Origin: Oscillospiraceae bacterium
GTDB taxonomy: Bacteria; Bacillota; Clostridia; Oscillospirales; Oscillospiraceae
Length of the DNA: 64,000 bases
Direction of reading: 5' to 3'
Assembly (NCBI GenBank): GCA_030625685.1
Contig: DAOUQJ010000010.1
Span: 1-64,000, forward strand
In this document: piece after piece, positions 1,528 to 4,381 of the stretch
Numbering within the stretch: the first letter of the stretch is position 1
Layout of the letters: each line of letters opens with the position of its first letter
Notes under the pieces: model-generated
Told to the model about the DNA's origin: nothing
Seen by the model: only the letters and a program-made list of their open reading frames with translations
The model's database searches: none
Made by a program: the position numbers and the translations under genes

Positions 1528-2430
1528 TTATATCAGTGATGTACTAAAATACCTTTCAACTCTGTCAGGCAAAATAGTTACAATATTTTTGTCTTGACCA
1601 TATTTTTCAGAGACTTTAATAGAAGCCCAGACATTGGCACCTGAAGAAGTCCCTGCTAAAATTCCCTGAACTCTAGCTAGATCCCTAGCTGTGTTAATTG
1701 CATCATCGTCTGTAACTTCAATGATCTCATCTATAAGGTTTACGTCCAGGTTTTTGGGAATAAAGCCATCCCCAATTCCTTGAATACTGTGCAATCCTGG
1801 CTCATCACCGAGAAGGGCTGATACATTTTTAGGTTCTACTGCAATTATCTTAGCCTCTGGGTTCTTTTCTTTAATAAATTTGCCTATACCACCAAGCGTT
1901 CCTCCACTGCCTAACCCAGAAACAAAGACATCAACTTTACCCCTCATTTGTGACCAAATTTCTGAAGCTGTAGTTAGATAATGAATTTGGGGATTATCCG
2001 GATTTTCAAACTGCTGAGGAATAAAAATATTAGAATCCTTTGCCTTATGCCTCTCAACTTCGGCCACTGATCCCCCAATGCTTTCCTGCGCATTAGTCAT
2101 AATGAGTTCTCCACCTAATGCTAATATTATTTTTTTTCTTTCCTCACTCATATTTTCCGGCATAACAATTACAACCCTATATCCTTTTTGAATACCAACT
2201 AAAGCTACGCCTATTCCCGTGTTGCCTGAAGTAGGTTCCATGATTGTCATACCAGGTTTCAACAACCCTCTCTCTTCCGCTTGCTCAATCATATATTTGG
2301 CAACCCTATCTTTAATACTTCCACCAGGGTTCAAATACTCTGCCTTAGCAAAAATATTCAACCCAGATAGTTTTTTCAAGCTAACCATTGGTGTATTACC
2401 AATCACGTCTAGTATGTTTTCAATTAACAT
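1528..2430 (-). CDS. cysK: cysteine synthase (O-acetylserine sulfhydrylase)
   Basis: The 300-residue product is a fold-type II PLP enzyme that makes L-cysteine from O-acetylserine and sulfide in the cytoplasm. The PLP-lysine motif GGSIKDR is at about residues 36-42 (K40), the substrate loop PTSGNTG at about 66, and the phosphate-binding GSGGTLGG at about 172; the end (LPDRVERYFS) resembles the family's LPDxxERY ending. Length is usual for CysK. I start at 2430, because AGAGGTGATTCA sits just upstream and the N-terminus MLIENILDVIGNTP aligns with the family; a 13-residue upstream extension is possible but unsupported. It follows the antiporter gene on the same strand after a gap of about 300 bases in which I see no terminator or gene. 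Cystathionine beta-synthase-like enzymes are the main alternative. Confidence 0.9.
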   Translation of the reverse strand: MLIENILDVIGNTPMVSLKKLSGLNIFAKAEYLNPGGSIKDRVAKYMIEQAEERGLLKPGMTIMEPTSGNTGIGVALVGIQKGYRVVIVMPENMSEERKKIILALGGELIMTNAQESIGGSVAEVERHKAKDSNIFIPQQFENPDNPQIHYLTTASEIWSQMRGKVDVFVSGLGSGGTLGGIGKFIKEKNPEAKIIAVEPKNVSALLGDEPGLHSIQGIGDGFIPKNLDVNLIDEIIEVTDDDAINTARDLARVQGILAGTSSGANVWASIKVSEKYGQDKNIVTILPDRVERYFSTSLI

Positions 2431-2729
2431 TGAATCACCTCTTTGATATATATTATAAATCTTATGCATATGAAGCTGTGATAGACATATGCCTTAAAAT
2501 TAATTTATTTAAGTGTTCCTCTTTATCTTTGATTTTATGAATATGAGTATATCTGTTACAATCTGTCATATATCTTAGAGCCAATCATTGAAATAAACAT
2601 GTCAATTAGATTTTGTAAGTGCAATGTCTTCACGAACCACTAACAGTGTAATATAGACTTTGTTGGGGTTATCTAGATTATTAATAGATGTGATTTTTTT
2701 TAGGCTTCTCCTCGTTGGGTCAATTGGGA

Positions 2730-3941
2730 TTAAGTATTAGGTTCATTGTCTTTATTCCTTGTCTTTGCGTTGTGAAGCAATCGCTTGTAAGTTTTATCAA
2801 TGGCATAAGTACCGAGAGGCGCAGTAATTAAAATTGCTAATACGGCTACTGTTAGAACAATTGGTCCACTAGCCAAACCCATGGTCAAAGGCAATGAACC
2901 AATGGCTGCTTGTACAGTAGCTTTTGGACAATAGGAAATCATGCAAAACACTCGTTCTTTGATGTTTAGATTAGTTTTTGTTAGGCAAAGGAAGACACCT
3001 ATCATTCGAAATGCCAGAACAATACATATTAGTATAATAGCAGAAACACCAGCTTCGAGTGCATAGTGAATATCTACTGTTGCACCTACTAAAACAAAGA
3101 GAAGTATTTCACCAGCTACCCACAGCTTTCCAAATTTTGCGGACAATCGAGTGGCTACAAGTTTATGTTTTTTCTTAATAGCAGTGCCCATTGCCATAAT
3201 AGCAAGTAGTCCTGAAAATGGTAATATTCCTTTGAGAGCGTGTTCTCCTGCTATTAAGAAGAATGATATACTAAGCAGAATTATTACTTTAGCAGAATCT
3301 CGCATTTTTACTTTCACAAAAAAAGTAGTTAAAACCATTCCGAACAAAATGCCAATAATTAAGCCGAAAATAATTGATACGGGTATTTGTAAAAAATTAC
3401 TTGCTGAAATAGAGGAACCTGTTGCCAAACCCGTGAACGCAGTAAATAGAACGATAACAAAAACATCATCTACAGAAGCTCCCGCAATAAGAAGTTGTGG
3501 AATGCTTTTGTTTGTTCCATAGTCTCTTTCCATTAAAAATAACATTTTGGGGACTATCACAGCAGGAGAGACGGCAGCGACGACTGCGCCCATGATTGCT
3601 GCATCTAAGACTGAAATGTCTAGAAGCATCGGCGCAATTAGTACCATGCCAGCAATTTCAAAACATGCTGGTATAAAACACATTAGAATTGCTGGTCGTC
3701 CAACTTTTTGCAAGTCGACAATATCTAAGGCAAGTCCTGCTCGTGTCAATATAATAATTAAGGCTAACTGTCTTAAATCAGAAGATATCGATAGAATTGA
3801 GCTATCGAGTAAATTGAGTGCATGGGGGCCTAGAATAATACCTGCTATTAACATGCCGAGCAGACTAGGCAGTCGAAAATAATTAAAAATTGATCCAAAT
3901 AAAAGACCAGATAAAAAAATTAACGCCAAGCTTATGAGCAT
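2730..3941 (-). CDS. cation:proton antiporter (CPA superfamily), probably fluoride-controlled
   Basis: A hydrophobic protein of 403 residues with about 12 membrane spans. It has the sodium/proton-exchanger pattern: an N-terminal gate-like LPSLLGMLIAGIILGP, the middle SPAVIVPKM, and GASVDDVFVIVLFT with paired aspartates where CPA antiporters bind the ion. The likely job is exchange of a monovalent cation (Na+ or K+) for protons at the membrane. I start at 3941, after AAAGAGGG, instead of 13 codons upstream. The gene is preceded by a 165-base leader that follows a fluoride-riboswitch-like element and terminator (4105-4203), which suggests induction by fluoride; antiporter genes are known but minority members of that regulon. 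Substrate is not determined by sequence. No regulatory nucleotide-binding (TrkA) domain follows the membrane part. Confidence 0.85.
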   Translation of the reverse strand: MLISLALIFLSGLLFGSIFNYFRLPSLLGMLIAGIILGPHALNLLDSSILSISSDLRQLALIIILTRAGLALDIVDLQKVGRPAILMCFIPACFEIAGMVLIAPMLLDISVLDAAIMGAVVAAVSPAVIVPKMLFLMERDYGTNKSIPQLLIAGASVDDVFVIVLFTAFTGLATGSSISASNFLQIPVSIIFGLIIGILFGMVLTTFFVKVKMRDSAKVIILLSISFFLIAGEHALKGILPFSGLLAIMAMGTAIKKKHKLVATRLSAKFGKLWVAGEILLFVLVGATVDIHYALEAGVSAIILICIVLAFRMIGVFLCLTKTNLNIKERVFCMISYCPKATVQAAIGSLPLTMGLASGPIVLTVAVLAILITAPLGTYAIDKTYKRLLHNAKTRNKDNEPNT

Positions 3942-4104
3942 GGGATACCCTCTTTCCGTTAGTATAGTTATAAAATACAATTCACTCTTACAAAAAATTC
4001 AAGTGTAACGTATATCAGATTGATTAAGGGTGGCTTGGTTTTAGATTTGATGCAATTGTACTTAGTTTGCTATATAAAAGCATGAATTCACTCCTTTTGG
4101 GCAT

Positions 4105-4203
4105 AAAAAAACTGATGACTTCTGTTGTTATACAACAGAAGTCATCAGCATTACTGCGGTTTAGAAAAGCATCTTGCCCTTCATGGGAGAACTTCATTCC
4201 CTT
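4105..4203 (-). promoter_or_regulatory. fluoride riboswitch (crcB motif) with overlapping terminator
   Basis: Read on the minus strand. P1 is GGGA (4201-4198) with TCCC (4188-4185), enclosing loop ATGAAGTTC, which matches the fluoride aptamer loop pattern AUG-N3-UUC. After a weak second helix comes GCTGATGACTTCTG; ACTTC there can pair with GAAGT of the first loop, the aptamer's pseudoknot. The same ACTTCTG forms the 5' arm of a perfect 16-17 bp stem (4148-4132 region with 4128-4112) followed by seven T (4111-4105), so pseudoknot and terminator exclude each other, the known 'on' switch logic. Deviations from the remembered consensus: GAAG in place of the AAC after P1, CUGU in place of CUAC at the 3' end, and a long loop in the second helix. 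It lies 165 bases before the antiporter start. Confidence 0.72.
4112..4148 (-). terminator. attenuator terminator of the riboswitch
   Basis: CTGATGACTTCTGTTG at 4112-4127 (plus strand) is exactly complementary to 4133-4148, with A7 at 4105-4111, which is a T-run in minus-strand RNA. It is oriented to stop transcription toward the antiporter gene. It could also end read-through from the DMT transporter gene upstream. Confidence 0.85.
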
Positions 4204-4381
4204 TTTTTCAGATTAACATATATTAAGTTGCGTGTCAATCTAGTCTTAGAAAAGTTTTTATATTCTAATTGAGTTTAGTATTTGTTATTAGCAGAGCAAT
4301 AATAGTAATCAAATCTAGCTATGAGAGTAAAGCACTTAATACTATGTTTTAATTCGTCTTTTGCGTTAAATATTATGTGAG

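Follow-up and report, generated by a model that had tools for sequence, protein, structure and literature searches.

Fluoride riboswitches of the crcB motif (Rfam RF01734) are an established class, and antiporter genes are already known among their targets. Their usual targets are CLC-F and Fluc/CrcB. According to a passage of the original crcB paper (PMC2864571), terminators often overlap the motif, and ligand binding should raise expression. An excerpt of PMC11139923 ranks Na+/H+ antiporters as the next-most common riboswitch-associated class after the exporters and proposes an accessory role for them in pH and sodium homeostasis. In C. difficile, as summarized in part of PMC11477304, a single fluoride riboswitch precedes CLC and NhaP-type genes (CD0656-7).

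Here we analyze a leader and antiporter gene within 64,000 nucleotides of DNA from an Oscillospiraceae bacterium (the window; features in Table 1). The leader has the P1 and P3 stems, pseudoknot, conserved loop letters, overlapping terminator and 5'-leader position of the crcB motif. Nothing substantial differs, although in the host copy P1 and P3 are separated by a longer insert and the gene lies 188 nt away. As in the cited account of C. difficile CD0656-7, a fluoride riboswitch precedes the gene for a Na+/H+ or K+/H+ antiporter; whereas that operon has both a CLC and an NhaP-type antiporter, the host antiporter stands alone in a genome without CLC-F. CLC-F and Fluc/CrcB are protein families unrelated to the antiporter, and neither is in the host genome, but their physiological role is probably the same. 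The likeness to NHA2/SLC9B2 (PDB 7b4l, 7p1i) extends to sequence family, fold (Z 34.8-40.9) and the DD, K, R and E residues. The host protein differs in being bacterial, in matching only from NHA2 residue 113-128 on (no N-terminal extension) and in being led by a fluoride riboswitch.

Table 1. Features of the riboswitch-antiporter locus, in window coordinates
Feature	Position	Strand	Basis
Fluoride riboswitch aptamer (RF01734)	4129-4210	-	Rfam, 45.4 bits (gathering 34)
P1 stem, GGGA 4201-4198 with UCCC 4188-4185; loop holds GAAGU	4185-4201	-	Sequence, Rfam match, alignment
Pseudoknot 5' strand GAAGU, in P1 loop	4195-4191	-	Pairs with ACUUC 4142-4138
Pseudoknot 3' strand ACUUC, common to terminator 5' arm	4138-4142	-	Sequence, alignment
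P3 stem, GCA with UGC	4157-4155 with 4150-4148	-	Sequence, Rfam match
Intrinsic terminator, 18-bp stem 4149-4132 with 4128-4111, T run to 4105	4105-4149	-	Terminator scan, folding
Possible promoter, TTGACA 4238-4233, 17 nt, TG-extended TAATCT 4215-4210	4210-4238	-	Read directly; weak
19-codon ORF, with AAAAGGAG at 4098-4091	4024-4083	-	Sequence; close to the position of the antiporter start in relatives
NHA2/SLC9B-like cation:proton antiporter, 403 aa	2733-3941	-	Pfam, sequence, profile, structure model
Cysteine synthase gene	1528-2469	-	Downstream, ~260 nt after antiporter

The riboswitch and its terminator

The leader RNA is almost certainly a fluoride riboswitch by identity. The original prediction, made from the letters of this DNA, had proposed one here, and the RF01734 match falls where it was drawn, with P1, the P1 loop, P3 and the ACUUC strand as placed. 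The match lies above the Rfam gathering score, with an E value of 2.4e-11 in 701 bases and of 2.2e-9 over the 64-kb window. It is the sole riboswitch in the window to reach a gathering score, and RF01734 is found only once in the host genome (2.1 Mb, 99.24% complete). Rfam listings of V_AS9, sraA and microRNA families around the locus fall below their own gathering scores, and many of them overlap the terminator hairpin.

Is the proposed pairing kept in relatives? In an alignment of 26 riboswitch copies preceding the same kind of antiporter gene, the 5-bp pseudoknot GAAGU/ACUUC is paired in all 26, and four of its five pairs are changed on both sides: U-A becomes C-G in five copies, for example, and A-U becomes U-G in three. 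The whole structure has 10 double-change cells, all in the pseudoknot, compared to a shuffle mean of 2.1; none of 500 shuffles reaches 10, a control that ignores relatedness and gives no probability. Sliding the pairing partners lowers every pairing measure in this alignment. P1 shows no double changes, and its closing pair is open in 6 of the 26 copies. The host riboswitch keeps all invariant columns of a 32-copy alignment. Two departures from consensus that had been pointed out are indeed present: GAAG within the P1 loop and CTGT following the pseudoknot. Both recur in relatives and look like ordinary variation.

The terminator is predicted at -28.0 kcal/mol (z -8.6; 0 of 200 shuffles equally stable). 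Since its 5' arm contains the pseudoknot strand ACUUC, aptamer and terminator are mutually exclusive. This is the ON-switch layout that had been predicted, and the one described in the cited passage of PMC2864571. By covariance score, compensated pseudoknot and competing expression platform, the RNA belongs to RF01734. On its own the aptamer is no more stable than its shuffled versions (z -0.54), so the case for a riboswitch rests on family match and covariation, not on energy. That folding result, along with a gap to the gene longer than in most relatives, is what speaks for a degraded or chance resemblance that does not switch. Such an RNA is very improbable given a score above gathering, the intact invariant columns, a strong overlapping terminator and the recurrence of the arrangement in tens of genomes; as a chance match or decayed RNA it is ruled out by Rfam score, covariation and terminator.

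The promoter candidate upstream was not picked up by a consensus scan, and its -10 element matches at only three of six positions. Downstream, the antiporter ATG at 3941 lies 188 nt past the aptamer end; in 50 class loci with a riboswitch this distance is 26-161 nt in 49 and 341 nt in one (median 54). The 19-codon ORF in the spacer has a good ribosome site, the antiporter start lying 142 nt further on. CATGCT is present at both starts (3937-4084), as if a short insertion after an old start had given a new one, though chance could produce the same repeat. The extra 5' spacer has no repeats of substance elsewhere in the window, and inspection by eye of the spacers of two relatives (L025, L100) showed no comparable peptide following a ribosome site. 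The ORF is probably non-functional or a private leader.

The antiporter and its linkage to the riboswitch

The original prediction named a CPA-family antiporter as the target. That assignment stands and can be made more precise, as the protein is NHA2/SLC9B-like. Pfam gives PF00999 only, and the protein is a member of neither the CLC nor the CrcB family. In a single-sequence search at E 0.01 the only solved relatives are NHA2/SLC9B2 structures (1.3e-41 and 2.4e-40). A profile built from 14 relatives matches NHA2 at 4e-64, with MjNhaP1 next at 6.6e-13. The AlphaFold model (pLDDT 81.2) has the CPA antiporter fold, with Z 43.7 to MjNhaP1 (20% identity) and many CPA exchangers among its matches; against NHA2 (32% identity) Z is 36.5-40.9 for the bison and 34.8-39.8 for the human protein. 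Of 90 relatives, 89 retain D158, D159 and K340 and all 90 retain R312 and E95; in the NHA2 alignment the five are matched by identical residues. We take E95, D158, D159, R312 and K340 to have the functional roles of the NHA2 site residues. Similarity above that to other CPA families of known structure, the CPA fold and the DD, K, R and E residues place the protein in the NHA2/SLC9B subfamily. From homology, antiporter fold and kept site residues, it looks like a working cation/proton exchanger.

Among named organisms, Mobilisporobacter senegalensis has the nearest antiporter (73%). Co-transcription of the host gene with the cysteine synthase gene behind it is possible. A second antiporter copy in the host, 65% identical (L081 4888-6069; G000:C12:165896-167071), is without a fluoride riboswitch and follows genes whose sequences resemble cotJB/cotJC.

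How often do riboswitch and antiporter go together? In a sample of 150 genomes from the host's family, RF01734 matches at E 0.001 in 22 genomes and above the cut-off in 18. These 18 riboswitches precede the antiporter in 13 cases, a CLC in two, crcB in one, and another gene or nothing recognised in two. The riboswitch-led CLCs read GNNLI, GREGT and GEATP (G075) and GMGLV, GREGV and GEVTP (G078). Counted from the gene, 14 of 15 family antiporter genomes have the riboswitch at the antiporter, 13 above the cut-off and one below (L020, 29 bits). Across the class, the antiporter is detected in 63 of 391 genomes (1e-40 or better), and a same-strand riboswitch lies 26-341 nt upstream in 50 of 65 loci, a set that leaves out the host's two copies and one fragment. 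Of these riboswitches, 21 are above the Rfam gathering score, one is just below (L115, 33.4 bits), and 28 were found by a model built here (56-82 bits). Among the genome_contigs relatives the riboswitch is at the antiporter in 13 of 19. At one of the other six (L032) it is detected by the model built here (4.4e-6) and is not listed by Rfam at E 0.05. By the criteria used, 15 of the 65 class loci have no riboswitch, three of them being partial or short of upstream sequence (L226, L244, L250), and neither do six of the 19 genome_contigs loci, at which Rfam finds none at E 0.1.

The pair extends well outside the family. The genome_contigs pairs include records labelled Bacteroidales, Enterococcus and Mollicutes, as well as one 3.5-kb contig binned as an archaeon, which may be a binning error. 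In the plasmid collection, where 10 named full-length records are present, all five that were opened have the pair (Acetoanaerobium, Peptoclostridium, Ilyobacter, Cetobacterium and Picosynechococcus). Together, the records with the pair are labelled Bacillota, Bacteroidales, Fusobacteriota and Cyanobacteriota. The suggestion of an antiporter "of this lineage" was therefore too narrow. Nor is the target rare, as had been supposed: from the family, class, contig and plasmid counts, antiporters are a main target of the fluoride riboswitch, and the cited excerpt of PMC11139923 likewise ranks them directly after the exporters.

Several observations were made in passing. In Peptoclostridium the fluoride riboswitch and the antiporter gene are separated by a gene encoding a CBS-domain protein (L256 2326-4149). 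One family genome (G007) has a 36-bit fluoride riboswitch before a gene that by eye resembles a SAM-dependent methyltransferase (L019 1501-1570; G007:C10), an unusual target, and also a 31.5-bit riboswitch-like site, below the cut-off, before two CrcB genes (L024). Of 795 plasmid records that match the antiporter, mostly from Klebsiella and Escherichia, only 10 do so over at least 80% of the query. In the one such neighbourhood opened, on Klebsiella plasmid NZ_CP144134.1 (L255 4001-4603), a C-terminal piece of an antiporter from this subfamily (query residues 206-400, 54% identical) adjoins rmtB1; it is a remnant next to this resistance gene and could point to that region's origin.

CrcB and CLC proteins in antiporter genomes

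Does the host encode a known fluoride exporter? CrcB was not found in its genome, which is 99.24% complete, and its one CLC reads GSGIP and GREGPS, chloride-type motifs that rule it out as a CLC-F. The gene for this CLC (L002 1291-3407; G000:C26) overlaps by four bases a gene that by eye resembles a beta-carbonic anhydrase, which suggests a shared acid-base role. CrcB is likewise found in none of 19 genomes, comprising the host and 18 genome_contigs relatives (L037 is not included, and completeness is given for the host only), and the CLC hits of these genomes read GSGIP or GTN. Lacking CrcB is a common state, since CrcB and the antiporter are both absent from 254 of the 391 class genomes.

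In the class sample, CrcB is above the cut-off in 75 of the 391 genomes. Antiporter and CrcB occur together in one genome compared to 12.1 expected (two-sided Fisher p 1.4e-5, which overstates the avoidance because the genomes are related). That single genome (G538) bears the most distant antiporter (34-36%). In the closer antiporter clade, at 50% identity or more, 0 of 34 genomes have CrcB with 6.5 expected, and 0 of 37 with 7.1 expected when three partial genes are added. Ten families hold both genes: nine of them are without any double genome and the tenth (f60) contains G538. Within seven genera (g112, g123, g169, g176, g202, g1 and g40), one species has the antiporter and another CrcB. 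Collapsed to genus level, the two share 6 genera with 11.4 expected (p 0.037). As a control, GTN-type (non-F) CLC and CrcB show no avoidance, with 13 observed and 13.6 expected. The family sample by itself gives no significant antiporter-CrcB avoidance (0 observed, 1.5 expected, p 0.36). The near-exclusion fits a substitute fluoride-resistance transporter.

This result bears directly on the published view that such antiporters are accessories, serving pH and sodium homeostasis under fluoride stress while resistance proper comes from something not recognised. The conserved Na+/H+ site agrees with such a role, as does the fact that one subclade is found together with CLC-F-like proteins. A mere accessory, however, would be expected to show either no relation to CrcB or a positive one, which does not fit easily with the avoidance observed; moreover, the host has no recognised exporter left to assist. 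We regard an accessory role as a serious alternative, though not the probable one.

The relation to CLC-F is different. A CLC-F query at 1e-25 matches 69 of the 150 family genomes and 90 of the 391 class genomes. Not every hit can be counted as an exporter, as most of those read carry GTN/GREGA-type motifs, outside the signature quoted from PMC11139923. In the family, 22 of the 69 matches were read, namely those of G075 and G078 and 20 others, among which are the hits from each of the 13 antiporter genomes having one. The hits of the 13 antiporter genomes are all of GTN/GTE type. In the class, at least one CLC hit was read for each of the 90 genomes. The exact CLC-F signature is present in seven (G519, G554, G415, G206, G334, G234 and G311), and five more come near it by eye with one or two motifs changed (G409, G517, G359, G466 and G513). 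Both antiporter overlaps in the resulting loose count of 12 (G466 and G513) are among the latter five. The antiporter does not avoid CLC-F in this sample, with 2 overlaps by the loose signature and 1.9 expected, and 0 by the exact signature and 1.1 expected (p 0.6).

Two CLC groups near CLC-F (L117-L146 and L155-L214; e.g. L124-L127 and L129) have the altered signatures GND/GREGA/GEVIP and GTN/GREGA/GEIVP. Class genomes with the GND/GREGA/GEVIP form have the antiporter in 5 of 5 cases, or in 6 of 7 if GREAA forms are added (p 8.7e-5), and five of those six antiporters are from the more distant clade. The 19 genome_contigs antiporter loci (3.5-7.2 kb each) contain no linked CLC or CrcB gene, and in 36 class stretches searched for CLC only, a CLC lies beside the antiporter in one (L246). 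Given the absence of avoidance, the co-occurrence with CLC-F-like proteins and the C. difficile operon, at least one antiporter branch may work with a CLC.

A proposed role in fluoride resistance

What would a cation/proton antiporter do under fluoride control? Our preferred reading, to which we give a probability of about 0.6, is that the leader is a genuine crcB-class transcriptional ON switch and that the antiporter, the only host gene found behind a fluoride riboswitch, is the main fluoride-resistance gene, whichever way it acts. Without fluoride, the nascent RNA would form the 18-bp terminator. With Mg-fluoride bound, the GAAGU/ACUUC pseudoknot would be held and the 5' arm of the terminator occupied, so that RNA polymerase would read into the antiporter gene. 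The antiporter would then stand in for the missing CrcB and CLC-F as the probable main fluoride-resistance gene of the host.

In the mode that we favor, the protein would exchange a monovalent cation against a proton, with the proton moving in and the cation out. Fluoride would enter as HF, which equilibrates, and its trapping would scale with the transmembrane pH difference. Proton-in/cation-out exchange would limit trapping because it lowers the pH difference that internal fluoride follows. An excerpt of PMC11139923 reports that yeast adapted to fluoride can cope with a lower homeostatic pH.

The other mode of the same resistance role is that the antiporter itself exports F-, HF or a metal-fluoride cation, coupled to protons, as a third prokaryotic export family beside Fluc and CLC-F. 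It is unlikely, and its share is already contained in the probability given for the preferred reading. In most loci the antiporter follows the riboswitch alone, the host is without a known exporter, and the avoidance of CrcB is much like that which CLC-F and Fluc reportedly show toward each other in the part of PMC11139923 cited here, all of which would suit an exporter. Simple anion export, however, sits poorly with a site that has retained the double aspartate, lysine and arginine typical of cation/proton exchangers; the protein also has a sodium/proton antiporter fold, and one subclade coexists with CLC-F-like proteins. Among the matches listed from the PMC open-access literature, taken by titles and abstract starts, none describes a transport assay with fluoride on an antiporter of this kind.

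The riboswitch class and its antiporter targets were already known. The present comparison brings out an NHA2/SLC9B-like subfamily that is mostly fluoride-controlled in several phyla and nearly excludes CrcB in a sample of one class. The loose label "Na+/H+ antiporter, pH homeostasis" can thus be recast as a question: is this the fluoride-resistance transporter of anaerobes that have neither Fluc nor CLC-F? That fluoride-switched NHA2-type antiporters form a third prokaryotic fluoride-resistance class, replacing Fluc and CLC-F by export or by prevention of trapping, is a tentative proposal that we hold to be somewhat improbable. If it is true, relatives of human NHA2 would have a fluoride-linked branch.
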